From Tubulanus polymorphus (lineage: Eukaryota; Nemertea; Palaeonemertea; Tubulaniformes; Tubulanidae), in contig NC_134029.1 in the NCBI RefSeq assembly GCF_964204645.1, forward strand, positions 9,848,850 through 9,912,849: a DNA stretch of 64,000 nucleotides, in the 5' to 3' direction. Below the pieces are notes generated by a model. The model saw nothing but the letters and a program-made list of their open reading frames with translations. It had not been told where the DNA came from and ran no database searches. A program made the position numbers and the translations under genes. Positions 1,335 through 61,526 of the stretch are shown here, piece after piece; the stretch's first letter is position 1, and each line of letters begins with the position of its first letter.

Positions 1335-4300
1335 TCAAACGGTTTTATCTTGAGGAACAACCATCAAAAACTTTTGTAGAAAACGTGTTACTTGACCTGA
1401 AAATGATGGTTTCGCTATTCATTAGTAAATCATTGTGAATGTAAAATATTGGCACATTGATCATTTTTTCATCATCATTTTTCTTAATGACGAAAGAAAG
1501 AGTTGAGCTATACTTCTAAACGACGCCAACTGAGATAAGAGTATTGCAGTCAACCACATTCATTAAGCCGTTTCGATACTTTAAGTCGATTATAATTATT
1601 AACTAGTTGGTTTAATGTGGATTTAATGAATTGAATGTTTGCGGGGTTCTACACTAACAATTGATACTTGAAAATGTTACTGTTTTGTTATTCTACTGGA
1701 GACATGATGGGAAATAAATTCAACCGTTTGTTGAGATGGAGCAACAAACTTTGAATTGCGGCATTGCCAGAACGAGACAATTTGTTCCGTTCGTTTTCCG
1801 AAATTATTATGAAATTTTGAACAGCAAATCAAATATATTTGTAACGACTTTGGATACCTCGCTGGAGCCAATAGATTGCATTGGCGAGTCAATTATTCCT
1901 AAAATTATTGACATGAAGCGTTAAATGTTCATAGTTACGCAGTGCCTTTACATACCTCAGGTGACTGGGCATGTCCGATGAAAACATATCATATTGAATA
2001 TCTGGTTATAACACTTTCGGTTATTACTAACAAAATCAAGGTTGCTACATAAACGAATTAAATTTTCAAACATCTATTTGGTAGAGGTGTTATATGAATA
2101 TGATAGGGGAAATGCATTGCCAAATTGGTATAGGAGTGATGATAAAGTGGAAAGCAAGAGAGACCCCTAAACTCACTAATGATAAGTTTAGAATATGACT
2201 GGAATCTAGGTTTAGCCTGATAGGGCGGGGGACGTTTTCGAACTAAAAGGGTTGTACGGAGGAAACAAAGGGTAGAAATAGTTGATATTAATAGACTTAT
2301 AAAGTCGAAACGTTAACTTAATGAGTTGACTTCGATTGGCAAAAATGCATTTCACTGATCGCGATGTTCTTTCATACTTACTTGATGTTTTCATTAATGA
2401 AGTAGGTTTATTTTTCCAGGAAACGAAAATCCAATGTAATGGAATTGTTGAAGCCATGAAAGCCAGACAAATTCCACTGTCGACTGGTTTTTGATAAACG
2501 GTCAATATCATTATAGCGATACTCCACAGAAACAGAATTATCGGTAAAATAATGGGCATCTGGAAATAAAGTTGAAATGAAAAAGGTAACAAGTAGCAAC
2601 GTGTCTGATAGGACCCGTTTCCCATTTGACCTATTTTTTCGTAAAACGTTAGATGACGTATGCTATGGGGGTAATACAAGATCATTGATCGAATCGCCTT
2701 TGAAATTATCAGCGAAAACTTCACACGCGATCCCACACCTACGCATCTTCCCCTCTTATGCACTTAATCTCGGGGAACACCTACACCGCAAATGTAGGCC
2801 ACTCAATTTCTCAATGGTTTTTTATCGTTGTCGCGATGGAATTGATCGTCTATTAGCTAATGGTTTACCGGTAACGATAACTATGAAATACGGTGCTGAT
2901 TCGAGTCATCCCGAATTTTTTCGAGTTCGAGTACAAAAGCTATGAAAGCAAATTTCATAGTGAGAAAAACAATTATCACCACAAGAAATAGATAATTTGT
3001 TTTCTCACCCTAGATATTTTTTTCCCTCATTGATATTTTGGCAGGGTCGAGAAAACAAATATTTAGCGTGAGAAAACAAATGTCGATAAAGAAAAATGAA
3101 TAATTTGTTTTCTCGCGCTAATGATCTTTTTCTCGCCCTAAGGTTTTTTCTGTGAGGTCACGAAAACGAACGTTTGTTTTCTTACTATGAAATTTGTTTT
3201 CTTGCAACCAAATTGTCTCACGGTTTCTGGATTCGAAACGATCCAGCCACCTATTGCTTATATATACAAACTTTAATCGGCCGTGGCATCATTGGCCGTT
3301 TCCATCTTAGGTACAATTGCGAAGCGAGGCACAAGGCTACGATGGCAGCAAATCCAAATCCCATAAGTTCCAGCAAGTAGAATATATCCCCTACAGCTAA
3401 CATTATCATCGTGAGTATTGCCTATAATTGAAAGTATTGCCTAAACATAATTTACACGGCTTTAGACCGAAGGCGAATATTTTTTATTGGCAAGCACTGA
3501 CGGCTACATAGTGAAGGATAAATAGACACATTTTTCTATGAATCCGGAAAAGACAAAAAGAGAACACTATAGATAAAATCGGTCGGTCATCACAAAACCG
3601 GACTATGCTCATTGAATATTCACAGAATCAATTATTTTTGGATCAATTCGAAAGCCTTCTGTGGATAATGTTTTAGAGATAAATAAATGAATAACTTATG
3701 CCGAGTTTTTCTCAAGATGAATGCCTTTTCATATTTTGAATTGAGTTATTGTACGACTTATTATGTCAACATAAAATCCAATGTTTTTCATCTCATTTAA
3801 CGCTATATTCACTGCTTTTCAGGGGACGTATTCATTAATAATAGCTTTTTAATTTTGTCTTTTTATCATTTCATATCTATATATCATCTCAATTCAAATG
3901 CATGTATGTTTGAATTAGGGTAAACATTTTTTCAAAAGTTGGAACAAATCTTTCGTTTTAACGCAACGTCAAAACTTTTTTCGTTTTGATATCTCGTCAT
4001 TCCCGTTTTCACGCCACATTCGAACATATTTCTTAAAATAGTTTTTAATGACCACCGAGCAAAAAGTCGTACTAATTCAAAAATGAATTCATGCGAGAAA
4101 ATAACTTGAAACCATTTTTTCTAAAATGATGTACGTTTCCGTAGATAAATAGAACCTATTACAACAATAAGAAATACAAGGTAATACAGTGGCCAGTCCA
4201 TACAGGGCTAACTGAAAAATGGCACTGATTCTTCTTTTATTGCAATATTGATCCTCTATGCGCTAGTATACAATTTTGTCGGCACATGGTTTTCTGCAAA

Positions 4301-7235
4301 CTCGAAATCAAGTGTGATACAGCACGAAAGACTTACCATAGTAACCAGTGAAGGTACGGGTGTGTATCGAGTCACGTGTATCATTGACAGAAGCTCGGGC
4401 AACTGACCTTCTTCGCCGCCAATAAAGAAGACTCTAAAGGTATAAAAAAAAATTGAATATGCTGAATGAAATTATGAAACGTACCATGCATGACTAGTTG
4501 GAAGACTTAACGTGTTCATTAGATGATTCGTGAAATTTTACGGATATGTTGACGTTTTCGCTATGAAAAATGAACATAATACGGAGTACTAATTTTCGGG
4601 GAGGGGCGGTAACTAAGCAGTAAACTACCTCGAAAAGGCCAGGGTACCGCCATTCATTGCTCCGATAATTGATGCAGCGACAAATAATGGCATTACCCAT
4701 GACATCGGTCCCAGTGTGTGTTCAGCAAAACTCTAGAATGGATATTTTACTTAATAATTTTACTTCCGTTTATACGTTACAAAAATGTTTATCGGTGAGT
4801 ATAACGACATAATTTCAAATTATATCCGAAATGAGAGAGCAACTGTTAGAACATTTTATGAACATTTTAATGCAGTAACGATACATAAAGATCGCCTTTA
4901 TGCGTACTGTTACCTATATATTCATGCTGTCATATTGCCATAATCCATGCAAATGACTGATAAATGGTTTGGGAATTTTTCAGTCCTCGTTTATTTATGG
5001 TCAGCGGACAAGAGAACATAGATAGTATTCCCGACGGTGATCGAATCATTTTTATATAGATGAATGATTTTGATGGAATTAACAAAAGAAACGGTCGAGT
5101 TGAGTGTTTTATTTTGTTATTCTTACCACGGCAACTGCAGGTGATTGTAACATCTCATCTGTAGATAAAACTGTCATATACGCCACATTAGCCATAATGT
5201 AGACGACAGTCACTAGCGATATCGATATGATTATAGCTCGCGGTAAATTCCTGCCAAGCACAAAAACATTTCTATCGTCATTAGAAGCAATCAATGAGTG
5301 GTGACTCAATATCTTTTACACTAGTTTTTGCAACTGGCGCTAGGTCGGTGCCCTCTTTGAGTTTTCTCCCGCCATTCAGTAACGATTTCCTCTTTTGAGT
5401 CTACTCAAATGACTGACTTTTAGCATCAAGACCCATTCGGCTGAATCAATCTTGTTGAAAAGTGAGCGGCAGTTAGAAAAAAACTTACTTCTGAGGATCT
5501 TTCAGCTCATCTACCAAGAAGTTCAGATAATGCCTGCATTAAAAGGTATTCGTTAATCGGTTAATCTATCGGATCAATGGGGTGGATTAATTAACGTTTC
5601 ACTAGGAAGAGCTTCAAATTACCATCCGCCGAATGCCCAATATCCCGAATAAAAAGCCATTGCCAGCGAACCAGCCCTATAATCGCTGCCTTCGAACGGT
5701 TGTTTTAGATTATGTGTTTTTCCTGGAATTAGATGAACTACAATTACGTGTTATATCCTTCGAACCACGAACGTCTCTCAATCACGACACGAGGGACACT
5801 CACCTAGTCCGATCCAGACTAAACCTATGATGATTATACCGAACAGGGCTATCAGTTTACATGCGGTAAACACTACTTGTACCTGCGCCGCCCATTTTAC
5901 ATTTCGACAATTCACAGCTGTCAACAGTACTGATAGAAAAACAAACTGAAGTATGCAATGTGACATGCAGAGAAAATATCCCTGCTTAACATTTTTTTCT
6001 AATCAAATGGATGCTATTTCAATTGTTTTCATAAATCTCTGTATACCCCATGATATCAGAACGAGTTACATTATTAAATGCCTCTGACGTTGATTCTAAG
6101 AGACAAAATAATTTCATAGAACAAAATATACCAGATGGCGACAGTATGCCCTGATGCAAACCGCCGTATGTCGTTGAGGACTAATTAGGGGATATCAAAC
6201 GATTGAGGTTAACTTAAAAATTTAAGTGATGGACAAAACATTATTCAATAGATGCAGAATGAAAGGGATTTGGCGGGATTTCACCCAATTTTAGTTTAAG
6301 ATTGCATCTATTTGGTCTTGACAGAATGAGAATCTAATTTTAACTCTTTTAACACAGCCCTCACATCTTCCTCTTTTAACACTCTCCAGTTTAAACATAC
6401 CCAGTTGTTTAAAGCCAGTTTTTAGTCAGATCCAGTTGCACATTTGCTGGTTAGAGTGGACCCCGAGATAAAGTTTACTTTCACTGAGCTAACCCTGAAT
6501 CAAACATTAACTCAGAGCCGTGAAACTGGATCCTGTTAATCTTTCAATTAAGCCTTTGCTGCCTGGATTTTAAGTCGTATCAAATGAACCCAAAACTACT
6601 GAGACTTTTTGTTGTTGTGATGTTCAAATACCATGCTTAGTTAGATGCACTCCAAAATACCATATAGAAAAGATGACGTGCCATGTTCGACCTCAACCGA
6701 CAAATTTTTGTTTCATTTCATTTCCTCAGTGAAATCTTCAATTCTACTTACAGAATACGGACGCTCCAAGAAGTTTGATTGCTAAATTCGGCGGGTCACA
6801 GGTATCATACAATGGACGGAGGATATAGGTGCCGAGCGTCAGCGAAGACACCGACACAGGCGTCGGAGATATGATTATCAGATTCAGTAACAGAGATGTA
6901 AATGCAGGAATGCGGCCTAACCCTTCCATGATGTAAACATACTCGCCTCCAGAGCGGGAAATAGTTGTGCCCAACTCAGCGAAGCACAGAGCGCTCAGTA
7001 TGCTAGCTACTCCAGAAAGAGTCCAAATGATTAGTGATAATCCGACGGATCCGGATCGTTGTAGAACCCCGACTGGGGTTACAAATATTCCACTACCTAT
7101 GATAATTCCAGTTATAATGGCTACTCCGTGTAATAGAGTCAGATTTCGCTGCATTTTCACCTCAGTTGAGGTTTTCTTATTGTCCTCTTGTTCATCATTT
7201 GCATTCGTACTACTTTCATCGGGTGTAGGAACCAT
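1335..7235 (-). CDS. SLC7 heteromeric amino-acid transporter light chain, copy 1
   Basis: Light chain of a heteromeric amino-acid exchanger (SLC7 LAT/xCT group), a 12-helix APC-fold transporter that pairs by disulfide with an SLC3 heavy chain at the plasma membrane. Coding exons, 5' to 3' on the minus strand: 7235-6752, 5929-5804, 5722-5623, 5533-5489, 5250-5127, 4732-4629, 4433-4337, 3421-3272, 2559-2382, 1396-1335. Together 1470 nt, 489 aa; all phases fit. Visible: TM1 GSGIF (47-51), the helix-break substrate motif; Cys146 in DTCDPP, the conserved heavy-chain cysteine; [20 protein letters not shown]; tail [12 protein letters not shown]. Internal motifs look closest to xCT (SLC7A11) among vertebrate members, but the substrate cannot be assigned. 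Start ATG 7235; Met28 is an alternative. The exon 8 donor (AAA|GTTTGT) is weak. Tandem with copy 2 upstream. Confidence 0.92.
2945..3200. repeat. Degenerate repeat cluster in SLC7 copy 1 intron 8
   Basis: The motif GAGAAAACAAAT and its reverse complement ATTTGTTTTCTC recur at least six times in both orientations, separated by short AT-rich spacers. It looks like decayed foldback or inverted-repeat satellite DNA and lies between exons 9 and 8 of the transporter. Boundaries are approximate. Confidence 0.5.
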
Positions 7236-9585
7236 GTTAACGCTTAAATTGTGGCCGTTATTCTCTTTAGTTGGTAATTTTGGGGTATGTGTTTTATCTA
7301 AAAATCTAAAAACAACTTACAATAAGACTAAAATGGAAAATCAATATGAACAAATTTGTGTAACATGAATATTCAGGAACTCGATATTTGATATTGTTTA
7401 TAGGGATCAAGCACGACGGAGTAAATCTTGGTTGACTGTTTCAGCTTGTATTTTGGTTCCTTCGCGTCGTTGCATTTTAATCATGCTGATTATACAATAG
7501 ATATTTCTTATAGAATAAATCTGAGATCTGTTGAAATTCAAATGCAGAGGTTATAGCGTAGGCTAGTTAAAACGTTCAAACATTTTGATACGCATGATTA
7601 TTAGTATTACAACGATCGCCCAGTATAAAATTCAATGGAAGAAAATATCACCTATCACGGTGGTATTCAGGAAATACTATGATTAAATCCATCGAGCATA
7701 TTAAACAGTGTAAAGAACCATTAATTCTAAATGAATATTACACGTATGTCTTTTGTTTGCCGAACGAGGCTTTATTATGGACTAACTATAAATCAAGAAG
7801 AAGATAAATTTTGAAATCAAGTATGCAAAGGTCAAACATAATATGTAGTATTCATCCAAAATTTCCTGCGACCGAAAATACTTTACTCACGTCATATCTG
7901 AAGGGGATTACGCGACCGTGTTGTTGATTCCGGTAGTGTAACAGTAAGTCTATAAAGCGGCTTTCTGATCTAAGTTGAGGGCTGATGAAATGGACTGGCA
8001 CGTTCTCCCGTCGTGTACAAAATAAATGCAATACGTCAAGAAAACATGCACAACTATAGCCATTAAGAACTGACTGCATGGACCCTAATGTTCGTACGAG
8101 TAAATTTATCACGCCACATCTGTAAAGGAATACACACTATATACAAAGCCACGACGTATAGAACTCATAATAACAATATATGACGAATTATCCTTGTCTT
8201 GCATCATACCGTTTCTGTTTATTTTGCTTTTTTTCAGAAAAGGATAGGCCACTCAGCAATATGCGTTTTTGTAGAAAACGTCTTCTTTTTTTATCCGTTG
8301 TAAAAGCAATGTGACATTGCCACGGTCGCAGTAATGCTGCATACGTCAAAATGTCGTCGAATAAAGAAGACCACACACGCGATGAAGTATGGTTGTGACA
8401 AAGTGAGTTTGTAACTGAAAAATTACCTTATATTTTACATTATTCCTATTTTTACGGATAAAAAGTCAGTGATATAAAAGAATTTGCTCTCATAATAATT
8501 CGAAGCTTTGGAGATGATGGATGAATGGGATAGTGGGTAGAAATTCCCCACCTTTGAATGGAGTGCAAATAGATACAATCTTAAGGTCAGTTTTTTTAAC
8601 GGTACGTATATTCAATTTATTTATATCTTACTGTGCGCTTTTTCATGAATATCAAGAGCATAAAAGTTATTGTACAATTTGAATTAAAAAGAACTACAAA
8701 TTAAATGTTAATTTATAAATATCGCACGGTTTAATATATCACAAGACTGTAAAAGGTTTTACGCACAGTTCAAATAATTATATTACAACTTGAATTTTGA
8801 AAATATCTAAAATTAGAAGTTCATTCGTTCTTTTGAATTCATGTTAGCAAAAAGCCACAGACACACGAAAATGATAATTTGGAGAAATATCTTGCTTCGA
8901 AGTGTTCTTTAGAAATCGCCTGGGAGTTTTACCTCTTAGAAGAATTGGGGATTTTCATCGACTCACAACCTACAGTAAAAACGCCCGAACTTAAGCGATC
9001 CTGCGCACGACGAGGAACTAGTGAATCCTACATCAAGATCCACAGTGGGTACACAGGAGATCACTGCATGTGGAAACAACCACTTCCAGGACTAGATGAA
9101 GCGTACCCCAGCCAATTCCTTGCGGAATGCTTCGGGCTTTACAGGTACCACCAACTCGGTGAATTTTGAAGAGGGGCCTTTTTTGAAAAATTCCGATATC
9201 CTTGATTTTTTACTGCGTATGTATAACTGTGGTCAAGTATTTACGGTTCATTTATTATCTACAATAAGTAAGGCTGAGTGCCATTTTGATCAACGATGCA
9301 AGAATAATGTTCACCGAAAGCTATAATTCATTATTTGACATAGACGTCTGGCTCTACGGCAGAAAATGTGTATCTACACAAGTAAAATGTCACGAATTTT
9401 CAAATGTAAGCTTTTATTCTTATACGAACACGGGACACACAAATGACGCGTGAACAACAGTTTGTCTCAACTACAGATGCGTGTAATCGATTCGATAGCT
9501 CGGCACAGTCGCATCTTTGTACAACACTGCCAATTGAACGTCTGCTACGTGAAGGTTGTAATTGACACCTGTGCAACCTTCACCA
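7236..9585. other. Intergenic region between the SLC7 copies
   Basis: About 2.3 kb separating the copy 1 start codon from the copy 2 stop codon. It should contain the copy 1 promoter and the copy 2 3' UTR. A slightly GC-richer patch at 8950-9170 is open in one frame for 96 codons but shows no recognisable domain or splice context. No gene supported. Confidence 0.4.
9413..9418 (-). terminator. Candidate poly(A) signal, SLC7 copy 2
   Basis: AATAAA on the minus strand, 168 bp past the copy 2 stop codon. The spacing resembles the equivalent signal behind copy 1. Confidence 0.35.
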
Positions 9586-12500
9586 TCAGTCGGTTTTATC
9601 TTGAGGGACGACCATCATAAACTTTTGTAGAAAACGTGTCACCTCACCTGAAAGTACATAAAAGCGAGCCATTGAATCAGCTATTCATTTGTAGTTAGCA
9701 GCCTGCGTACATGTACGAGTATATATTACAGAAATTCGAACCTGTACAACAATTTTGCCAAACAAAAACGAAGACTGGTATTCTATTCTACATTGTGTAT
9801 GTACATGTTTATTGCTTCGAAACCGTAAAAAATATTGTGTTTGGCTTATTTCGATGTTCTGATACGCTCCTGGATCCAGTATGTCAGGGTTTCGCCTAAT
9901 CTTCCTGGGATCGCGCAAAACCCGAACGGGTTATTCGCACCAGTTGCTGTTAGTTCTGTTATGGGACCGAGATCAAATTCCAAATGGGAAAAGAGGTTCA
10001 CATCAGGCTTTCTTGTTCGGGCGTGATACTTACGTGTGGTATTTGTGAATGAAGCTGGCTTCTTTTGCCAAGAAACAAAAATCCAATGTAAAGGAATCAT
10101 CGAAGCCATGAAAGCCAGACAAATTCCACTGTCGACTGGTTTTTGGTAAACGGTCAATATCATTATAGCGATACTCCACAGAAACAAGGCTATCGGTAAA
10201 AGTATGGGCATCTACAAAATACATATTCAGTTAATTGGCGAGTAGGACTAAATACACTTGAATAAACAGGAATCCGTTGAAGGGTTACTGGAATTAAAGT
10301 AAACTGTAGAATTTTATTATCGCCATTTTTTCATTTCAAATTTTGTGAAAACTATCATTGGCGACATTTTTTTCCGGTGGCATTATTTCCTACAATCCAT
10401 TTTTATGTGCTTAGCATTTAAAAATTCTATCTTGATGACGTTCTCATTTGGATATATTTACTCTAATCGCTCGTGGCATTTCTGGATGTTTCCATCTAAG
10501 GTACAGCAAAGATGCCAGGGTCATCGCAAATATCGCCGAGAATCCGAATCCCATCAATTCCAGTAGGTAGAATATATCTCCAATAGTTAACATGATCACG
10601 GTCAGGATCGCCTAAACGAAATAATGAAGCGTTGGTGAGAAGTTGTCTTACGGTCGTTTTGTAACGTAAATGTTGAATATACTTGACCATTATAACTAGT
10701 GAAGGTACGGGTGTGTATCGGGTTACGTGTATCATTGACAGAAGCTCTGGTAACTGACCCTCCTCGCCACCGATGAAAAATACTCTTAAATGAATGAACA
10801 CAGTCCTAATTAACGATCTGATAGTTCGTCACCTTTAAATCTCAGTGTAAGGTCAGAAATGATATTCATTTGTCCGCAAGGGCACCAGTTCGTCATCTAT
10901 CGACCCAGCAACTTTTTTCTTGCAGATGTCCATTATACACAAACATATATACAAACAATACCAAAATTCAAGGAAACTGGTCGAACTTCAAGTGTCTTCG
11001 ATTCCATGACCGTTTCGAAAATACCCAAAAGCGCCGATTGGCTACGGTACAGGTGGCTGCCGGTCGGCTATCTTGATTTTGATTGGCCTTATTCTTAAGC
11101 AGGAGATATGCCTAGTACAGAATCATGCATGCACTATCAAGTTATTCCCAAAAACCCGATTCGGTCGATAAACTAATAAACGAGGCGACATACAAGTTGA
11201 CGCAGTTGCTCTAAGTGGGTTATCATTTGCATTCTCATGGAGCGTACCTTGATATAGCTAGGGTTCCGCCGTTCATCGCCCCAACGATGGATGAAGCCAC
11301 AAAGAGGGGCATTATCCAAGACACTGGTCCAAGCGTCCGTTCGGCAAAACTCTACAAGAGACAAGACACTTTTGAGCTAAGGCATGGCTGTTATGTAAGC
11401 TAGTACTGGCAATTTTTAACACAAAATATTTGTCAAACTGGCAGAGGTGGATAAGAATCACTTCTTTATGTTATCACTTACCACATTGGGGTCAGTTTCA
11501 AAGAAGGGTTGGGCCTTCATCGTTCCAGAGTCTGATATGCGTGGACCCCATAATTGGTATCTACGTTACAAATGCGTCTGACATCCCAGAAGAGAGGATT
11601 GGGAGGAATGCCCCCACGGATATTTTCCACGGAGTTTAGATTATTTCCCGACCAATTAGTTTAAAAGTAACAAAAATCCAAAATCAAACACCAGACTGTG
11701 CGGGACAATCGATGATGGGAAAATATCGTCAGAAAATGTACTCAGACAAAATGTTGTGGAACTCAGGATATGGCGCCTGAAATGGGCAAATTTGTCTCAG
11801 AAAAAGTTACGTTTTTTGAAAAAAGTGGTTTATGAACTGACGGGTGGTTGGATCCTCCCGAACGCCCCCTAGATCCGCCCTGCGAGGACTCTGATTCCAT
11901 TTTTATTGACATTTCACGTATGATTGAAATTCCGTAGACTACGTACATTATCTGGGTCACTACTGCATAGTTTAAACTTAAGAACTAGTTATGTTTTGCG
12001 TGATAATCTCTTATCTATGACTATTGTATAGATACATATTTTGGATACTAACATATCATAAATAAATAACATACTTAACGTAAATATACTCATAAAAGTA
12101 ACGGGAATGAATTTTATTTACCACGGCAACTGCAGGTGATTGTAAAATCTCATCTGTAGATAAAACTGTCATATACGCCACATTAGCCATAATGTAGACG
12201 ACAGTCACTAGCGATATCGATATGATTATAGCTCGCGGTAAATTCCTGCAATAAATAAGCGATGAAATTTTTACGGATGATTTTGTCGCATTAGGCGGGG
12301 TGATAATCTTCGTAACATGAAACTCAGCTTGCCTTTCTGGATCTTTCAATTCATCCACTAGAAAATTTAGATAATTCCTACAATATGAAAAACATGGTAA
12401 ATAACACAACTGAAACATATTGATGATTATGGAGGTAAATATCGTCATTTATTCTGAATGTAGTTTTCAAGAAAGGCAAATGCCGATACGGGTGCCCCGA

Positions 12501-14645
12501 TGAATGTAACATCGTAGGTCACTTCAAAAACGAATAGTTGGTGAATGATGTCAAAAGCCTTGAAAAGTGACACAGTTAAAGGAAGTATTTTGGTCAGTTT
12601 GAAACGCTAGGTGTATGTATGAATAATTGCTATGGATTTCGGGAAATAGTCACAATAGTAGGGAAGAGTTCTTGGGAACATGAGATACAAATCTGTCCGG
12701 AAAGTTCAAGCTACAACTCGTATGAAAATCGATTAATCAAACCGTAGAAATAAATTTCATAACATAAAACATTGTCGTCCTGGATTCGACCTATATAGAT
12801 AAATGCATGGTACGCTACCTACCATCCCCCAAATGCCCAATATCCAGAATAAAAAGCCATAGCCAACGATCCGGCGCTCAGATCACTACCTTCGAATGGC
12901 TGTTCAAGATTGTGTGTACGACCTGAAATAAATCAAAAAAGGGTTTTAGCTTCATTTAGATTGATCAATCAGCCCCGTTCTAAAGTAATATCATAGACAT
13001 GGAGTGAAAAGAGTAAAACCAGGAACAATGTTTCAATGCTGACATATCCAAGATTTAATTCTTAATTCCTTCACCGTAGCCCCACGTATTCTGTGTTTAA
13101 GTTAATTCCTTTTTGCTTGCATTTTTCTTTACCTTTTTACTAATTGACTCAGCATCGAAGCCAAAAATTTATACGCTCACCTTTTCCAATCCAGACTAAA
13201 CCTATGATGATTATACCGAACAGGGCTATCAGTTTACATGCGGTAAACACTACTTGTACCTTCGCCGCCCATTTTACGTTGAGGCAGTTCACAGCCGTCA
13301 GCAACACTAAAATAAACAGAGATCAGTCACATTCAAATACGAAACTAAGACATGAACAAATCTCGCAAAAGATAGGGAAAGTGTTCGTCCATCGACATAT
13401 GGATGATGATATTTGTAGAATGATCCAATGACTTGATTTTCACTTAGTTATGTTAACTGATTAGGGTTAATGAATAGGCAATAGTAACGGGATTTGCAAT
13501 ACAATCCCGGTCATTGGACAACGCACCGAACCATTCGCCTGGTAAGTATTCAGTGCTTGCTTGCTTGCTATGTTATTTTGTAGCTCATTTCGACGTCACA
13601 CGAACTGACAAATAGAAACTTCGAAGCTCTCCAGTTCCAGATCTAGCCAACCGATTTTAATGAACTTTAACGATGCGGAAGATAATATGTAATACTTTAA
13701 CAAACAAGAATATCTGGCATCATAAAAATGGCAAAAAAATTAACCCCCGCATGATAAAATTACAAACTGCTCATCTATTTAACAAAATCTCGCTATATTC
13801 GTCAATCGTGTTTAAATCTGGAGACAAGTTGAGCTACTTTCGGATCTAATGCTTATGGCCGATGACGTCATCAATTGAACGATGGCATAAACTCGCCATC
13901 GTGAGTTAAAAACCAATAAATATTTTCGAACTTTCGCTAAGAGTTCTATCACTGAAGATCGTCCTCATTCCATGATCAGAAATTGTCCTCTATTATTTAC
14001 TTCCAGCGACAACGGATTAAATCTTCTCGTATTTCAAGAATTAGTTTTGCTAATAGATAATGCGTTTCAACTGGCTAATGGCATCATGATATACACCGTA
14101 CACATGTTGTTATTTACGTGTAGGCCTACCCGTAACGAAATTATACTAATTTGATACATGTTTCTTTCTATGTTCTACTTACGAAATACGGTCGCCCCGA
14201 GTAGTCGAATGGCCATGTCGGGAGGGTCGCAGGTATCGTACAACGGACGGAGGATATAGGTGCCCAACGCCAAGGCAGATACCGACACCGGAGTCGGTGC
14301 GATTATTATTAGATTTAATATCAAACACATAAAGGCCGGGATGCGCCCTAAACCTTTCATTATGTATATATATTCGCCACCGGACCGGGTGATAGTCGTT
14401 CCGAGTTCGGCAAAACACAATGCGCTGAGAATGCTAATCAAGCCAGATATCATCCAGATTATGAGCGATAATCCAACGGATCTGGATCTTTGTAGCACGC
14501 CAACCGGGGTGACAAATATTCCACTGCCTATTATGATTCCAGTTATTATCGCTACTCCGTGCAATAGTGTTAAATTCCGTTTCATTTTTACCTCCGCTGT
14601 GGTTCCCGTAACGTTCGTTGCATCGTGCTTTGCTTTTGGGGCCAT
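9586..14645 (-). CDS. SLC7 heteromeric amino-acid transporter light chain, copy 2
   Basis: Tandem paralogue of the neighbouring transporter with the same architecture. Coding exons, 5' to 3' on the minus strand: 14645-14183, 13306-13181, 12922-12823, 12377-12333, 12245-12122, 11351-11248, 10784-10688, 10611-10462, 10211-10034, 9647-9586. Exons 2-10 match copy 1 in length exactly; the total is 1449 nt, 482 aa. Key residues: GSGIF at 40-44 (TM1), Cys139 in DTCDPP (heavy-chain disulfide), SGYWAFGGW, and a C-terminal VTRFLQKF tail. The N-terminus differs from copy 1 and is seven residues shorter. Intron 4 (12332-12246) starts with GC rather than GT, is only 87 bp, and is open in frame, so retention would add 29 residues. 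Exons 2, 5 and 9 contain tracts nearly identical to copy 1, while exon 6 is about 26% different. Both copies look functional. Substrate not assignable. Confidence 0.92.
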
Positions 14646-39600: not shown

Positions 39601-42600
39601 TACTGGTTTGCCATCTAGGAACTGAAATCGAATCAGCACCGCACTATGGTCATCAATGGTCCTGAAATATTGGAAAGATTTTAACTACGGAAGCGTCCTG
39701 GGTCATAATTTAGGAAAAATAAAATTTTAATTTTTCGTCACGATACATCACATCATCTGAAATAAATATATTTTGATAGTTTCCCCCATTTTATGTCGAT
39801 TCATTATCTCAACATTAATTAATTTACGTTTGATAACAAATTTTGCCGATATTGTTTCGAGTTATCATCACGACATTAAATTCATTAACGATGAATAAAG
39901 TTTTGCTGATTTTATGTCGTTATTATCTCGAATTTTTATTTTCTATTTTTCGTAAATTATTGTATATCGATATAATAACTCAACACAAAATCCGGAACAG
40001 TTTTGATGAATCATAAATAATTTTGTGTTGAGATATATCTTAACGCAAAATCTGCAAAACTGTTTATCAATCATGAATGAAATTATGTCGAGATAATAAC
40101 TTGATAATAAATGAAACCTTTTTATTTTTCGTAAATGATGTACCCTAGACAGCAGTGAATCTAAATAAAAAATCGGATTTTGAGTTAAACAAGAACATTT
40201 CTGATTTAATGCCGATATTAATAACTCAATATGTGAAAGAATTGAAATTGAATGGTCACGTTTCCAATCGGACGAGGGGTCATATAATTCTGGTTCGGTT
40301 CGAGTTATTAGGTTATATCGAAGTTTCTCAATCGCGTGGAGTCATTATGCGCTGTGGAAACTTATGTAGAACGTATTTTTTTAAACTTCTTGGCTGTAAC
40401 CAGGACCCGATTCCATAGTTCTTGCTTAACGTTCGGGTTAACGCTCAAACTTTTTGACAATTTTGGAACTGAGCCCTGAGCGTAATTGATGTCATTACAA
40501 AATATGCAGGCACCAGTATAAACATACAATACCTTGCAATTTTGAATATTCTACTGCGATATTAATTCAAGTATTCATAAACCGCACTGCAAAATTTTCG
40601 TCCCCATCAGGCAGATTTAACAGTTACATAGTTAATGATTCCGTGAAAGTGACCATGTGCAATTACAAAATGTGCAAGGGTTACTAACACTAAAAATAAA
40701 GGAACTTAAAGAGATTAAAATCAAGTTAGCCTACATCCATCGAATCTAATGTTCATTCAGGATTCAACGGCACCGACGGCCTGCCTGGTCCGGTCGGTCG
40801 AATGGGTGACGTCGGCGAGCCAGGACAAATTGGACCCCCAGGACCATTGGGCCCGAAAGGGATGACCGGTAAACCAGGGCCTAGAGGACTTAAAGGTGAC
40901 CCAGGAACCTCGGCAAGTTCGTCTGGGTACTTTGCTGATATGCCGAACTGTACATGTAAGTTAGCGTGCTTGAAAAAAACAACAGCAACAATGAAATTGT
41001 TAGAAATTTGTTACCAATATTATTTTCTAAACATATCTATCAGGTAAAAAAGGCGAAAAAGGGCAACGTGGACTCATAGGATTTCGGGGATATCCCGGAA
41101 AAGAAGGTTTTTGCTTAAGATAAAAGCTTTCGATGTTGTCACCATATTTCCCCTGCATTAATCGATGTGAACAAATATGTATTAGAAATTAAATTCAAAT
41201 CTGACCATGACTGACAAAAGCTGTGAACGTACCCCGGTTTATGGACTTTTATAGGGTTCACTGATATAACTATAAGTTCATTGAGTTAACCCTATAGGAA
41301 TAAAATTAAAGCCGGTCTAGAAAACTGATCGTAGGAAACAAATACGAGTTCGTTATAACAGGGTCTACAGTATTTTTATAGTTCGTAGAACGTTGAGAGA
41401 AACCTGTAGAAGGGAGTGTGCGTGCTCAAAAAACCAAAATGATACAGCTTTGATTGTTCAGACTATAAACGTGATACATCTAGTTGTAACGGACTCGAAT
41501 CATCGCATGTTGCCAACAAAATCCTCGGATGATACAGATAAATGGTTCTAGAGTCTACTCTATAACAAGTCATTGCTAAAAATGTGTGTTGCACACTTCA
41601 ACCAAAACAAAAGTAAATTTTGTTATACGTTGTGCGTAGTTTAAAGAAACAGTTAATTCATCTAATGTTGTCCATTGTATCTATTTTGCATATCCATTTA
41701 TCATATTATTATCTATTTTCTATGTATCTATTTCATATTATCAATTTTGTTCAACTATCGTTACTTTTACAGGTCCCCCAGGCCCACCTGGACCTCCAGG
41801 TACGTAAACATTTAGATGATAATCTCACAGCATCTTGGCATTACAAGTTGGAAAGTCCCTTAACTAGGACTGAATAAAACAGAGAACATTGTTATTAATA
41901 TTCATATAGGGCCAGTGACGCATGGTTTGCCAGGAACGCGAGGGCCACGTGGTCACAAGGGTGAGAAGGGCGACAGAGGCCTCGACTGTAAGTAGGATAC
42001 ACGGTCATCAACGTTTCTGTTCGGTAGCATTCTAGATTCAGAGTTATTAATATACATATATTTCTAAGAAATGTTTTTCCTGTTCACGCGGCAGCGGTTC
42101 GAATCCCGCTAAAAATGAATGGATCAGCAAATAGGACATCGCCGTATCTGCACATTTATTTAATGTTTTTATGTTTGGTATGGTCATAAATGCAGGTAAA
42201 ATACGTATAAAAGTGTGTGTATGTTAATTGCCATCTTTCAAAACCAGTTTCAATTTTCAACGTTAAGTGTCGTAGGTCTAATTTTTGGTTCAGTATGTGT
42301 GTTTTTACCCCACAATACGTAGAGGAGATAAATGTGATATTGCCTAAATGAGCAATAAATGACCAAGTTCAAGCAAATTCATTCTCTATCAGGGGTTGAT
42401 TGTATATGAAAATTTTAAGCAAGTTATAATTCGACTCGGGTGTACCACCTTTTCTGGATTTTATATGACCACGTTTGTACTTAACATGTTTAATGTTTTC
42501 GTGACTGCTACGAAGACTTTGCGACTTCTCATCCGATTTCGATACTCCCCTTCTTAATTTAGCACGTTATATTTTACGTTCGTCATATGTTTTAATTTTT

Positions 42601-45053
42601 TCAAATGTTCGTTTTCGGCGTTATGGTACGATTTTGTACAGGTGGATTGGGTTTTTTAACTGAAAAATGCTAATCGTTTATTGGTACACGGTCACCGGTG
42701 ACTAGCATTTCCAGAGAATTTTCATAATATCCATGCGCCATCTATCGCACAACCTTCTTAGTATTTACGCTACTTTGTACTAAGTTGTTTCGAAATATAT
42801 TTTGTGGGTCAGTATTAATTGTTCTCTAATTGTGCGGGCTACCTAATTGCTACCTAAATCCATAATTTCTTTTATCCATGGGAATTTTACCATCAAATTC
42901 TCAGATAATCATCAGAACATACTGCAGAATTGAAAAGCAGGCTTTGTTAGGATTTCTGTATTTTATGAGATTTCTTTAAAATGAAAAACCATATAAATTA
43001 TGCTAATTAGGTCACGTGACGGACATAATTAGCGTGACAATTAATTTTTGAACACCAAAATGTTTGGCCACTTCGTTGCCCTCTCTGGGTTCAGTAACCT
43101 TTTCATAACTCTTATGGTATCTTTATACCAGGGGTTTTAGAAAATTCACCAACAATTTCTTCTGACTTCTGGCTCAGTACGGTGAGCGGGTATATGGCCA
43201 GTACTGAAAGGGTTAATGTTCAATCGTAAGAAAAAAACTGAGTTAAAATTGGAAACTACATGTAATTTATGTATAAGGATTTCACGATACATCAGTCTAC
43301 GAGTCCTGTACTTCTCCGTCCAGCTATACGTGTAGGCCTATAAGACTGCATTTTTCTACGGCCAATACGACGATAACTCAACTTTCAGCTCGTAAAAACG
43401 AGCTTTTGTATGACTTACCAAAAAGGCAACAAAAACGTGGGTCACACGTTAATCTTTGGACTCTTCTGTGATTCTATCGTGCAGAAACATACAAAAATAT
43501 CACTATAATGCATCAATTATTTTTTAGTGTTGACCATTAAACTTAGATGAATAATGTTTGATTTAAAAACTTTTTATATAATCTTTTTAATAGTTTGGTT
43601 ATTATTGGCAGATTGTCGTAGATGTATATGTCGGTTGAAAATTGAAACCTAAGCCAACAAAAATGATACCTTATTTCTCCTAATCGGCCGGGTCATCTTG
43701 TAAAATGCAACAAAATTTGTGATCAGTTCATTTCTAAAGCTGCCCGGTATGTTATGGTAAAATCGATCATTAAAAAACATTAATGTACAGGGTAGATGGG
43801 CGGCCGGCCGGGTGAATTTTCAAGCCAAGCAGAAATGAGAATCAAGGTATCAATTCTTCTTCCCTAAAATATTTTTCTGTCTGTAACTATACCAGAAAAT
43901 GGTTAGAAAAAATTTTCAATAAAAAATTACACAAGAAATTATTATATCAATATGTCCCAAGGATTGTCCGTTTGATGTGAGATGACCTAACATTCCAAAA
44001 TTATTTTCAGGTGGATCGACAGTAGCCCCTTACACAACCACAAGCGGTAAGCGAAAATAAATTCCAGCGTTTCCATAAAAACTGAAAAACTAGACAGGGC
44101 ACAAGTCACTTAGTTACTGTTAATGAGGAGTGAATATTCGATATTTTCATATTCTTTGCAGTTCCATTGACAACGACCATACCACCGACACTTGCTCCAA
44201 GAAAGAGAGGTAACAAATCTACGATATCTCATTTCAATCGTACATGCCTAAATGATCGATACGTATATACATGTACGCATGATCGATATTTTCAGAATGT
44301 AGAATACAACTAGTAGGAAAGCCCGTTTTTCAACGATACACGGGAATTTACTGGGGAGCCTGGATGAAAGACGCATCTCCGCCAAATGTGGCCGCGGCCA
44401 GTAAAGTATGGCTGACCAAACACTTTCACGGGCGATTTTTGCATGAATACAAAAATATGAATGACTTCATCGAAGATGAAGCTAGTAAAACATTTTCACT
44501 GCGGCATCGTTACCTCGGTACCGGCCACGTAGTGCACCGCGGTTCATTTTATTATCAAAGTTTCGGCGCGAACGTCGTGATCAAATTCAACTTGACCAGC
44601 GAAACGACCAGCGAAGTCGTAATACCGGATGCCGCCTATCGCAATCAAAAGTTCTTGTACAAAATGGAATACAACTATTTCGATTTTGCAATTGACGATA
44701 ACGGTTTATTCGTCATCTACGGCAGCAAAAGGAAAGAAAAGACGATGAAGGTGGTACAGCTTGATCCGGACACCCTTCAAATACTGGCCACTTGGAAACT
44801 GCGGCTGGATCACCGTCGCTACGGTAACGGTTTTGTAGTCTGCGGCATCCTGTATTTGATCAGAGACACGGAAACGCAGGACACTCAAATCAGCTACGCA
44901 TATGATTTGTATAAGAACGAAGAAATAACTGTCGACGTTCCGTTCTCAAATCCATTTGGCAAAAACAACATGGTGTCCTATTCGTACAGAGAAAATCGCA
45001 TTTACGCGTGGGACTTAGGAAATCAGTTGACCTATCCGTTACTGCTCGTCTGA
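21628..45053 (+). CDS. GLDN: Gliomedin/colmedin-type collagen and olfactomedin membrane protein
   Basis: Type II membrane protein of the gliomedin/colmedin family; vertebrate gliomedin organises neuron-glia contacts, while the role here is unknown. Exons: 21628-22023, 33845-33911, 34689-34736, 37286-37384, 37719-37826, 38042-38113, 38328-38417, 40761-40955, 41044-41106, 41773-41799, 41910-41987, 44011-44046, 44162-44209, 44296-45053. Total 2085 nt, 694 aa (human gliomedin 551). Order: cytoplasmic 1-14, TM 15-35, furin-like RVKR at 99-102, a [11 protein letters not shown] motif (122-132) followed by two Cys like the pre-collagen segment of gliomedin, Gly-X-Y repeats about 183-342, a Cys linker (NCTC), Gly-X-Y about 361-412, a Ser/Thr/Pro linker, and an olfactomedin domain 443-694 in one exon, with the paired Cys (ECRIQ and VVCGI). 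All introns from exon 2 on are phase 1. Further phase-1 exons could hide in the long introns. Confidence 0.92.
22748..22802. repeat. Short perfect inverted repeat (hairpin)
   Basis: ATGTTCACACTCAG (22748-22761) pairs perfectly with CTGAGTGTGAACAT (22789-22802) across a 27-nt spacer, inside colmedin intron 1. It could be a small foldback remnant or an expressed hairpin. Confidence 0.7.
24707..24740. repeat. 34-bp near-perfect palindrome
   Basis: CAGGGAAGTGTGATGA is followed, after a 2-nt loop, by its exact reverse complement. The arms are 16 bp. It lies in colmedin intron 1 and would form a cruciform or a tight RNA hairpin. Confidence 0.85.
28630..28985 (+). mobile_element. Retroposon 3'-end remnant with ATTGA tail
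   Basis: A GC-richer segment ends in AATAAATATATTGAATTGAA and further ATTGA units, a short tandem tail like those of CR1-like LINEs and related SINEs. No intact reverse transcriptase is present. The left boundary is a guess. Confidence 0.4.
31658..32290. mobile_element. Foldback-type element with iterated terminal repeats
   Basis: The left end carries three or four roughly 15-16-bp units of the form AGGTAAAAATTCC (31658-31720). The right end carries the same units inverted (ATTTTTACCTCT, AATTTACCTCTGACATTT, 32195-32275). The interior is AT-rich and non-coding. Iterated inverted termini around a short spacer are the hallmark of foldback DNA elements. Exact ends and target duplication were not determined. 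Confidence 0.5.
32377..32414. repeat. TG microsatellite
   Basis: An imperfect (TG)n run with two TATG interruptions, adjoining the right arm of the foldback element. Confidence 0.85.
38768..38895 (+). repeat. Dispersed repeat, copy A
   Basis: About 128 bp in colmedin intron 7 closely matches 53083-53210 in the same orientation, including TACGAATAC, TTTCC(A/G)TGGTATA, GGAGGAAAA and AACT(T/G)GGCTCA-like blocks. Two copies 14 kb apart in unrelated introns mark an interspersed repeat family. Confidence 0.6.
39780..40120. repeat. Degenerate repeat array with TCGAGATAATAAC-like units
   Basis: Units such as GTCGAGATAATAAC and inverted TTATTATCTCGA, mixed with TTTTG(C/T)GATTTTATGTCG, recur six or more times in both orientations within colmedin intron 7. 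It resembles low-complexity satellite or foldback DNA, comparable in style to the cluster near 3 kb. Boundaries are approximate. Confidence 0.45.
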
Positions 45054-47922: not shown

Positions 47923-50900
47923 TCAATCTTCCTCATCACGTCTGCGTATATTCCGAGAACCGGCCATTTTGCGTTTTTTAAAACTAACCGGCTCTGTGAT
48001 AGCTTTAGCATTTTTTGATAAAGTTACTATTTTCTCTTTAAATTTGAATTTTGGAATATCTGGAGGTGAAGCCGACTGTTGAGGTGGGGCATTTACTTCA
48101 TAATTCGATTTTGGTAGCTGTAAATCTGGTAATTTCCTACAAGAAATCAAACAACTAATGTTATGCTTTTAGAAATTCTATTTCATAGACAGCAGACTTT
48201 CTTATCTCAAATGCTTTCAGAACAAATCATCACTTTAGCAATGTGAACTAAGTTCTATTGTCCAACTTAAATTGGAATTCACCTTACTCAAATGAAAATC
48301 ACTGTTTCCAATTGATTCAAGTTAGGAGTCTACTGTATATATTTGACATTGGACTGGTATGAGCAGTAGACAAATTGGGCAAGCACTGGGCCATCCCACT
48401 AGCAACAAAAAATAATTTTTTTATAATGTTCAGTGAGTATGGTTTGCTCACAGTAGTAACTGTAAGTCACAAGCAGTGATACTTGACAAATTCCGACATA
48501 CATGTAGATTCATTTGAAATTTAAGCTTTGAATCATCTAGTTTATTCTAGTTTATTTATGGGAATACAAATCTAAACCACATGGTCATTTACTGCTGCAT
48601 ACCGAATAAATAAACTGCATGTTTGATGTCCAGCTCAAGTGCTCTCAGATGCATTCAGGTATTTTTGAATGTGTAAATAAGTAAAACCATATAAGAAGAA
48701 AACAAGAAAACTAAGAACTTTTTGGCCCAAAAATCACGTGGCAGTTTCCAGATCAAGTTTTTAACAAGTGGAACCGGAGATAGAAATGTTGCCCTGGTTA
48801 ACCCTTTTAAGCTCAAGTTTTTTACACTGCGACTACCCTAGAAATTCAATTATTTTCGGTCATTGTTGCGCTTTTCGACAACTCATATTTGAAGCCATTA
48901 AGTTAAAAAACAATCAGTCCTATGGCTTAGCAGTGACATAAACAATTGTAGACAATATTATGACCTTTCATATGATACCAGGTTTGAGTATTTTAGTTAC
49001 ATAGCATTGGTCAGTATTTGCCAGATTCATCAGAGGCGGGGCCAGGACTTGGCCTTGAGAAGTGTTTGATTTTCGTTGTCTATATCATAAATATCATCTG
49101 CACTTTTTTATAAAGTCATTGGATTCACTGTCTATTAGTTCTAAATCATCGTCTCCAAACTCATCATAAGCAATGATTTATAATAAAACTTGATCTATAT
49201 TCATGATTTTACCTTACTTATTTCGAAAAAATGACAAATTTTGACTCAAAAACAATGAATTGCAACCATCAGAAATTTTTACGGCGAATAATAGACAGAA
49301 ACGCCATCTACCGACTAATGATGTGCTATGATGAAAACCTGTAGGTGAAACGACAATAATTTACACTTTTAACAGCGCACCTAGGGTCAAGCATGAACTT
49401 AAAAGAGTTAAGGTTGGCACTTCTTGTAAATTGGCACCTGAAAAAATTTTGCCTCTTTGTATTCTGAGCATACTATCACCCATTGGCTGTTGTGGTAAAT
49501 GACAAAGGATCATTGTTTCCCATAGTAATTGTAATGTTTGCAGGCGCAAAATATTTGAATTTTTTGTCGCAAAAGTTTGAATCATCGAGAGCCCGGGATA
49601 CAAAGAGACAAAATTCTTCTGGAATTGGAATTATCGGTGCATCTCATTACAGGATAAAGATTGATACTGAACCAATTTCAGAAATTGCCAGTAGTCCCGA
49701 ATTTTCGGGGTATATTTAAGAAGTATGGAGAAAGGTGTGTTTATCGCCTTTCTTTATAATATAGAATAGACAAGTGAAGCCCGTTGCATCATGAGTAAAT
49801 TCATTATGAAACATGGCAGATGATTGAAGTAGGGATAACATATCGTTGGAGAATTATTAAGCACTTCTCCATTATCAAAGCCCATATTCAAATGCCTGTG
49901 CAACGTTTTATGGAAATCCCATCAAAAATTGCAAGCCATATTGTGCTAACTAGAAATTCAAGGTGGCTGCACTGGTAGCCATTCCAGATGGCTGATAACC
50001 CCCACTTTCAATTAGGATGGACATCACACCTGTTCCAATCCTCGCTCCAAATTTCAGGAAAACCCATCAAGAATTGTGAATGTATCCTGTGGGATCTCAA
50101 GGAGATGGCAGACGCACATTTACTAATAAAAGATGGCTCTCCCAACCAATTTTGAACAAATATTTAACTGATCTAGATCATGGTTTTTTATTTCTTAGAA
50201 ACGTGTTATCCAGTTTATGTTCCTACATAATCAATTTTTCACTTGTGAAGGCCTTGATATCTCATTTCTCATAATATCGCTTTCTTTATAATATAGAATA
50301 GACAAGTGATGCCCGTTGCATCATGAGTAAATTCATTATGAAACATGGCAGATGATTGAAGTAGGGATAACATATCGTTGGAGAATTATTAAGCACTTCT
50401 CCATTATCAAAGCCCATATTCAAATGCCTGTGCAACGTTTTATGGAAATCCCATCAAAAATTGCAAGCCATATTGTGCTAACTAGAAATTCAAGGTGGCT
50501 GCACTGGTAGCCATTCCAGATGGCTGATAACCCCTACTTTCAATTAGGATGGACATCACACCTGTTCCAATCCTCGCTCCAAATTTCAGGAAAACCCATC
50601 AAGAATTGTGAATGTATCCTGTGGGATCTCAAGGAGATGGCAGACGCACATTTACTAATAAAAGATGGCTCTCCCAACCAATTTTGAACAAATATTTAAC
50701 TGATCTAGATCATGGTTTTTTATTTCTTAGAAACGTGTTATCCAGTTTATGTTCCTACATAATCAATTTTTCACTTGTGAAGGCCTTGATATCTCATTTC
50801 TCATAATATCGCTAAGCCGCCTGCATCACTCCCGAAAGACAAAATAAAAAGAAAATAAAGGCCAATGGTCCAGTAGCTCGCTAAACTAATGTAAAATAAA

Positions 50901-59412: not shown

Positions 59413-59523
59413 TAGAGATATACTGTTCAAATCACCCGCTATTTTGGTTACTGTATGGTGCTGCCACTCGCAAAGTGATGTTGCACCAATGAGACACCGT
59501 ACTTCACAAAAACGAAAGTAAAA

Positions 59524-61526
59524 ATGGCTGCGCCCAGTAAAAAAGGCAGCGGTAACAGAAAATTATCAGCAAATGAAGTTTTAGATCGAATTTTAGCTGA
59601 CTCTGATTCTGATGACCAGGACATTGATGTCGGCGATGATTTAGAGTTCAGCAGGAACGAAAATGCAAGTGATGAGTACGATTCTGATTCAGATGAATTA
59701 TATGATGACAGTCTTTTAGATGATAGTTCACTTAGTGCCTATCCAGTTGCCATGGTTACGCATGAACACTCATCTGATGAAAGTAATGATTCTGTTGCTC
59801 AGCCTATAGCGAGAGGGCGTCCAAGACAGAGAACTGCAGGCCCAATTAGGCTCGTGGTATGGGACGTGGACGTGGCCGTGGTCAGGGACGTGGCAGTGGT
59901 GGAAATGTCGTTGTGCAACATGTAAGGCCTAATCCTTGGAACTGGACTGACACTGTGACTGGATATGCACCTAAAAATATTCCAGTTACAGCTGTAGAAC
60001 GTGTAAGGCATCGTTTTAACGAAAATGATAACCCTAAACCCATCGATTTTTACAATCTTTTCGTTACGGATGAACTTTTATATCTGATTATACGGGAAAC
60101 AAACCGGTACGCGCGTCAATACATAGCGGCCAACGGTGAAGAAGTGCCATTTGAATGGAAAGATGTGGATTTGCCAGAAATCAAACATTTATCGGTCTAA
60201 TGCTGATGGGAATAGACAATTTTCCGTCGATGCGGATGAATTGGAGTGCAAATGAACTTTTCCATACACCAATTTTTAGCCAAACAATGACGAGGAACAG
60301 GTTCGAACTCGTACTACGTTTCTTGCATTTCAATGATAATGATCAGATGCCAGACCAAGCAGATGCTAATCGCGACCGTCTATATAAAGTTCGCTCTCTA
60401 ATAGATTTCTTTCGACGCAAATTTCGTGCGATGCTTGAGCCCGGCCCAGATGTTTGTATCGATGAATCCTTGCTCCTCTATAAAGGTCGTTTACACTTCA
60501 AAGTTTATATTTAAAAAAAAACGAGCGCGTTTTGGGATGAAACTGTACAAGTTATGTACACCAAATGGTTACACAATTGACTTTTTGGTTTACTGTGGCT
60601 CTCCAGAGCCAAATGAGACATCAGGTTTTGAGGAACTTTCTGCAACTGAGAAAATTGTCGGTACTCTGATGGAACCACATCACCATATGGGTCGCTGTCT
60701 TATTGTGGACAATTATTATACCTCACCGCACTTGGCTAAATGGTTGTTAGATCAAGGAACTTACATTGTCGGAACTTGTAGGAACAATCGTAAGATGTTT
60801 CCAGCAGATTTGAAACTGTTGCCTGTGGACAAAGGTAAAACGGCATTCTCTGTTGAGAAGACGCGTCAAGTTTTAGCTATAAGGTTTCGAGGTATCAACG
60901 ATAAAGCTAGTGGTAAACCCAAAATTGTACATTTGCTATCAACAAAACACATGCCAGTTACAGAATTTGTAAAGTTTGACCACAAAAATAGAGAAATTAT
61001 AAAGCCAAAAGCGGTAATTGATTACAATCATAAGATGGGAGGTGTAGATCAAACCGACCAACAGCCCCACTCAATTCATACTGTTTGGAAAACGTACAAA
61101 TGGAGCACTAAACTAGCCGTTCACTTACTTATGCTAGCAGCCTTGAATGCTCACAAAGTTTGTAAGATGTCGTACCCGAGAAATGAGTTTCTTGGATTTC
61201 TCAAAGATGTTATAGCTATTCTGTTGACATCATCTCCGCGTCTCAGTGCCAATGTACTTCGGGATACTACCGTAACTCGTTTAACCGGACGCCACTTCCC
61301 GAGAGCTCGAGGCAACATCCCATCAGGTGCGAGGCGCAAAACTAAGATTTGTAGGGTTTGCTATGCCCGTGGATTTCGAACGGCTAATGGAAAACCAAAG
61401 GAAACTGTATTCATTTGTGTCAACTGCCCAGATCATCCTGGATTACACGTAGAGTCCGACTGTTTCTATGTCTATCACAATGTGCTGGACTATGGAGTAG
61501 AACCCGTGGACAATACAGACTATTGA
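59524..61526 (+). pseudogene. piggyBac transposase, frameshifted
   Basis: A cut-and-paste DDD transposase. The ATG at 59524 has good context (AAAATGG) and starts an acidic Asp/Ser-rich N-terminus typical of the family. The frame changes three times: near 59850 before a Gly/Arg-rich run, near 60180 (EIK to FIGLMLMGI, consistent with one lost base), and in the A9 run at 60513-60521. All three catalytic Asp are present: DESLLLYKG (codon at 60461), VDNYYTSPH (60708) and HKMGGVDQTD (61047). The C-terminal Cys/His-rich zinc-binding domain (CRVC, CVNC, then ESDCFYVYH) is also intact. Stop at 61524-61526. The copy is dead unless the shifts are sequencing errors. Confidence 0.88.

Follow-up and report, generated by a model that had tools for sequence, protein, structure and literature searches.

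Near-identity confined to exons in a tandem pair of nemertean SLC7 genes: probable interlocus gene conversion

Two adjacent amino acid transporter genes of the palaeonemertean Tubulanus polymorphus are nearly identical in parts of exons 2, 5 and 9 and widely diverged elsewhere. Does this mosaic reflect the copying of sequence from one gene to the other, or selection on signals carried by the exons? The question was addressed in a window of 64,000 nucleotides, the whole stretch of DNA analysed (NC_134029.1, contig C5, 9848850-9912849; genome of 267.8 Mb). Positions given below are those of the window unless another locus is named. The two genes are:

1335..7235, minus strand: gene A, an SLC7 transporter of the LAT/xCT light-chain type; exon model of 10 exons, 489 aa
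9586..14645, minus strand: gene B, tandem paralog of A; exon model of 10 exons, 482 aa

Both products match the AA_permease_2 domain (PF13520; E=2.7e-55 for A, E=3.1e-58 for B), and the nearest solved structures in the PDB, covering residues 8-480, are those of an xCT consensus protein, LAT1, xCT and LAT2. Judged by this similarity to LAT, xCT and b0,+AT along the whole length, A and B are SLC7 light-chain amino acid transporters, with transport and pairing with SLC3 as predicted properties. Open reading frames are intact in both genes and splice sites are valid, intron 4 of gene B having a GC donor. As had been claimed, the two copies share their junctions: the exon models agree at all nine introns in position and in phase. 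The pair represents an old tandem duplication. A genome search for a third copy of either gene, as a possible donor, found none. The intergenic region between them contains a repeat of about 310 bp (about 8532-8843) with at least dozens of copies in the genome, 68-77% identical.

Other features were noted in the window. A single open frame of 187 codons lies at 404-967 on the plus strand; its hydrophobic core looks caveolin-like, by eye only. At 40730-45053, plus strand, an exon with collagen repeats (PF01391) is followed by an exon with an olfactomedin domain (PF02191), which suggests a gliomedin-like collagen-olfactomedin gene. Segments 49742-50281 and 50275-50813 lie next to each other and are tandem duplicates of about 533 bp, 99.4% identical. 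A PiggyBac-like transposase frame with DDE_Tnp_1_7 and zf-Tnp_2 domains occupies 60405-61526 on the plus strand, with open frames upstream of it at 59479-60514.

Comparison of A with B exon by exon gave 13 differences in 126 bases for exon 2, 22/100 for exon 3, 13/45 for exon 4 and 1/124 for exon 5; the corresponding figures for exons 6 to 10 were 27/104, 14/97, 42/150, 25/178 and 8/62. Near-identity is concentrated in three tracts, listed here with two exons of A used for comparison:

5812..5900, minus strand: exon 2 tract of A, 89 bp with 1 mismatch (Q/K), 88/89 identical
13189..13277, minus strand: exon 2 tract of B, counterpart of 5812..5900
5123..5254, minus strand: exon 5 tract of A, comprising the whole exon (5127-5250) and 4 splice-site bases on either side, with 1 mismatch (M/I)
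12118..12249, minus strand: exon 5 tract of B, counterpart of 5123..5254, the exon being 12122-12245
2450..2534, minus strand: exon 9 tract of A, 85 bp with 1 mismatch (synonymous), 84/85 identical
10102..10186, minus strand: exon 9 tract of B, counterpart of 2450..2534
4629..4732, minus strand: exon 6 of A, serving as an unconverted reference, 27/104 bases differing from B 11248-11351
4337..4433, minus strand: exon 7 of A, the 3' portion of which has identical but weaker patches (silent-codon segment p=0.99)

These values reproduce exactly the counts of the original prediction for exons 5 and 6 and for the 89-bp and 85-bp tracts of exons 2 and 9. For exon 5, identity is 123/124 over exon bases and 131/132 when the splice-site bases are included.

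The three tracts differ from the rest of the coding sequence at silent positions as well. Per-exon dS (NG86) is 0 in exon 5 and 2.1, 1.7, 2.6 and 2.6 in exons 1, 3, 6 and 8, respectively; outside the tracts, silent sites are near saturation, dS reaching about 2 or higher in exons 1, 6 and 8. The claim that synonymous sites are conserved in the tracts was borne out: A and B differ at 1 of the 47 fourfold sites inside the tracts vs 88 of 154 outside, the expectation for random third bases being 74%. Among degenerate codons for the same residue, 0/38 differ in exon 5, 0/25 in the exon 2 tract and 1/24 in the exon 9 tract, the figure elsewhere being 155/288. The longest runs of identical silent codons measure 40 and 26, the maximum reached in 20,000 permutations being 25, and a silent-site scan (5,000 permutations) returned p<2e-4 for exon 5, 2e-4 for exon 2 and 0.007 for exon 9. 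A two-state model outperformed a one-state model by 41.9 log units. Once the three tracts are taken out, the order of the remaining sites is close to random. The two-state model also hinted at extra tracts in exons 7 and 10; these were rejected, since neither the scan nor permutations of the sites beyond the three tracts found them significant. Third-position GC, examined as a check on donor direction, is 0.43-0.44 in the tracts, 0.42 in A and 0.47 in B and does not single out either gene as the donor. Conversion is recognized by mosaic identity with sharp borders, in tracts whose length exceeds chance, and A and B show this signature.

The exon 5 tract spans offsets -4 to 127 of the exon and takes in 4 flanking bases at either end, which are only splice consensus (GCAG and GTAA). 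Identity therefore falls off within a few bases of the splice sites, as the original prediction had it. The exon 2 tract runs from offset 29 to 117 of the 126-bp exon, stopping 8 bases short of its 3' end, and the exon 9 tract from 25 to 109 of the 178-bp exon, 68 bases short. In both exons the remainder is at background level, with 12/39 differences in exon 2 (vs 1/87 inside the tract) and 24/93 in exon 9 (vs 1/85 inside). Hence, the notion that tracts stop at exon edges stood for exon 5 and failed for exons 2 and 9, where both borders are intra-exonic. Alignment of all nine intron pairs revealed no similarity between A and B above shuffled controls. The tracts are limited to alignable sequence, another property expected of conversion, and the exon 5 tract reaches no further than the splice sites since homology itself goes no further.

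Inclusion of silent sites in the tracts, sharp borders inside exons and unalignable introns all support gene conversion, which had been put forward as the simplest cause. We consider it very probable that A and B have undergone recent or recurrent interlocus conversion, confined to exons since only exons keep homology. Their introns have diverged past alignment, and silent sites are near saturation in most exons, which leaves the exons as the sole sequence in which either copy could template repair of the other. Short patches (85 to about 130 bp) of exons 2, 5 and 9 would then have been copied between A and B in the recent past, once or repeatedly. Such copying would be non-reciprocal and probably proceed by synthesis-dependent strand annealing; we infer both this pathway and the number of events. 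The observed tracts (85-132 bp) fit the range of tens to hundreds of bases estimated for conversion tracts in a review (PMC3924818). What speaks against conversion is that the background exons, about 75% identical and without flanking intron homology, fall below the usual homology requirement: in yeast, identity over about 200 bp (PMC3924818); in E. coli, over 23-90 bp (PMC3758752). Given such low background homology, maintained or recurrent conversion is likelier than a single late event. This suggests that repeated conversion has maintained the similarity of the exons, as opposed to divergence followed by a single overwriting.

The main alternative is that selection for RNA or DNA signals within exons, such as splicing enhancers, structured RNA or an exonic enhancer, fixes every base of the tracts in both copies. 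The limits of the exon 5 tract, which follow those of the exon plus splice signals, speak for it; the borders of the other two tracts, lying within exons, speak against. We compared A and B with seven distant SLC7 paralogs from the same genome, a set for which z-scores ignore the kinship among paralogs. Observed over expected silent differences were 0.95 for the exon 2 tract, 0.81 for exon 5 (in comparison with A), 1.20 for the exon 9 tract and 0.99 for the rest. Divergence in exon 5 is therefore slightly below the expectation from codon usage, and A, B and 7/7 paralogs compared have two exon 5 codons in common (AAT, at the exon start, and TAT); among the paralogs alone, with A and B left out, the exon 5 ratio is 0.91. 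However, this paralog-wide reduction amounts to about 10-20%, vs 100% between A and B, and it is found in exon 5 only, the tracts of exons 2 and 9 having no reduced silent divergence across paralogs. Codons for the same residue differ in the distant paralogs at 60/95 positions in the exon 2 tract, 33/39 in the exon 9 tract, 101/180 in exon 5 and 657/978 elsewhere. In the closest SLC7 paralog (L042, C5:24.20 Mb), exon 5 has 28 codons for the same residue as in A, and 16 of these are different, similar to other exons. The tract exons have no unusual RNA secondary structure (z of -0.2, -0.4, -0.1 and -0.7), and a search for conserved RNA structure found none. A mild constraint on exon 5 is possible, but it is too weak to account for zero silent differences between A and B. 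Constraint may instead be private to the A/B pair. With silent codons scrambled in the paralogs, folding ordinary and two of three tracts ignoring exon edges, selection on exonic signals, which had been proposed as the competing cause, was not supported, and we regard it as quite unlikely.

A different source of template might also be envisaged. If the template were spliced RNA or cDNA from one of the genes, tracts would be confined to exons automatically, and no tract enters an intron past the 4 consensus splice-site bases. Nevertheless, a genomic template gives the same borders where introns lack homology, nine introns are retained in both A and B, two of the tracts lie within single exons, and none of the data requires such a template, which makes it exceedingly improbable. 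A broader proposition holds that conversion persists on isolated exon islands of about 85-130 bp, in exons otherwise about 75% identical and without flanking homology, far under the homology requirement usually cited, and that it recurs genome-wide in transporter arrays; an RNA or cDNA template would then account for the confinement to exons as well as for the shortness of the homology. This reading, too, strikes us as very unlikely. Finally, the overwriting of part of one copy by reads of the other during assembly or polishing, conceivable for sequence taken from a single assembly, is extremely unlikely, considering that unrelated flanking introns should allow reads spanning the 124-bp exon to map uniquely, that each tract contains one differing base rather than zero, and that comparable mosaics exist at unrelated loci.

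Other tandem transporter genes of this genome provide a context for conversion between A and B. Introns are still alignable, at roughly 70-90%, in younger SLC7 arrays at C2:20.56-20.59 Mb (five genes) and C3:4.21-4.22 Mb (two genes). In an old SLC6 pair at C2:28.05 Mb, one exon contains a significant silent-identical stretch (21 codons, 2 differences, p=0.007), the remaining exons being 49-79% identical. In a three-gene SLC6 array (L051 and L052, C6:4213500-4236400), exons contain stretches of 43-57 consecutive unchanged silent codons, with long stretches in exons 2 and 4. In this array L051 pairs with g2 in exons 1 and 7 (5/42 and 4/33 silent differences), and g1 pairs with g2 in exon 6 (5/42 vs 14/40 and 16/39). 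Such apparent switching of partners between exons is predicted by conversion and not by constraint. The exon frames of this array derive from translated-BLAST segments, one of which is misaligned (L051-g2 exon 3), and we take the pattern as supporting rather than primary evidence.

Two further SLC7 loci showed exon duplications of their own. L042 (C5:24199500-24208500) carries two different copies of exon 8, at 4994-5137 and 6028-6174 of the locus, both with an intact frame and AG/GT signals; they are candidate mutually exclusive exons. The same locus contains a recent local duplication (1701-1812 vs 1928-2039) comprising the end of intron 1 and the start of exon 2 (through GCAAAAGTCGCAGTA), the duplicated segment sitting upstream of an intact exon 2. 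At L046 (C2:26288300-26298200), three diverged copies of SLC7 exon 1 (9307-8873, 8180-7749 and 4494-4033 of the locus) precede a single set of exons 2-9 and are candidates for alternative first exons or partial gene duplications.

The A/B pair offers a clean case of conversion surviving in exons after introns have drifted apart. Phylogenies of single exons, or dating by dS, would be misleading here, exon 5 pointing to a very recent duplication and exon 6 to an ancient one. The genome as a whole spans young pairs with alignable introns to old pairs with exon islands only, and could be used to gauge how much homology conversion needs in animals.

Similar situations have been described. Reports of conversion usually concern exonic regions, and the faster divergence of introns may impede the process (reviewed in PMC3966223). 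In the copepod genes GOT1Sd and GOT1Sr of Tigriopus californicus, conversion is largely exon-restricted, with GENECONV evidence, and the intron is too divergent to align (PMC3728101). A and B resemble this pair in showing exon-restricted conversion between paralogs beside unalignable intron sequence; they differ in that the coding regions of GOT1Sd and GOT1Sr are not substantially diverged overall, and population data exist for them, whereas A and B have three islands of 85-132 bp in a near-saturated background. Caenorhabditis paralogs undergoing concerted evolution (PMC3966223) share with A and B the exonic tracts, tandem copies and diverged flanks, but their compact introns often lie within tracts, while the tracts of A and B include no intron. 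Alternating islands of near-identity and divergence within coding sequence, as in A and B, are also found in GOT1p1/GOT1p2 (PMC3728101) and in the Drosophila pair CG18281-CG17637 (PMC2588116); there, islands of divergence stand in a converted background, and in A and B the proportions are reversed. Exon-restricted conversion beside unalignable introns is thus already published, and the comparison gives good support to the view that A and B are a new example of a known process.
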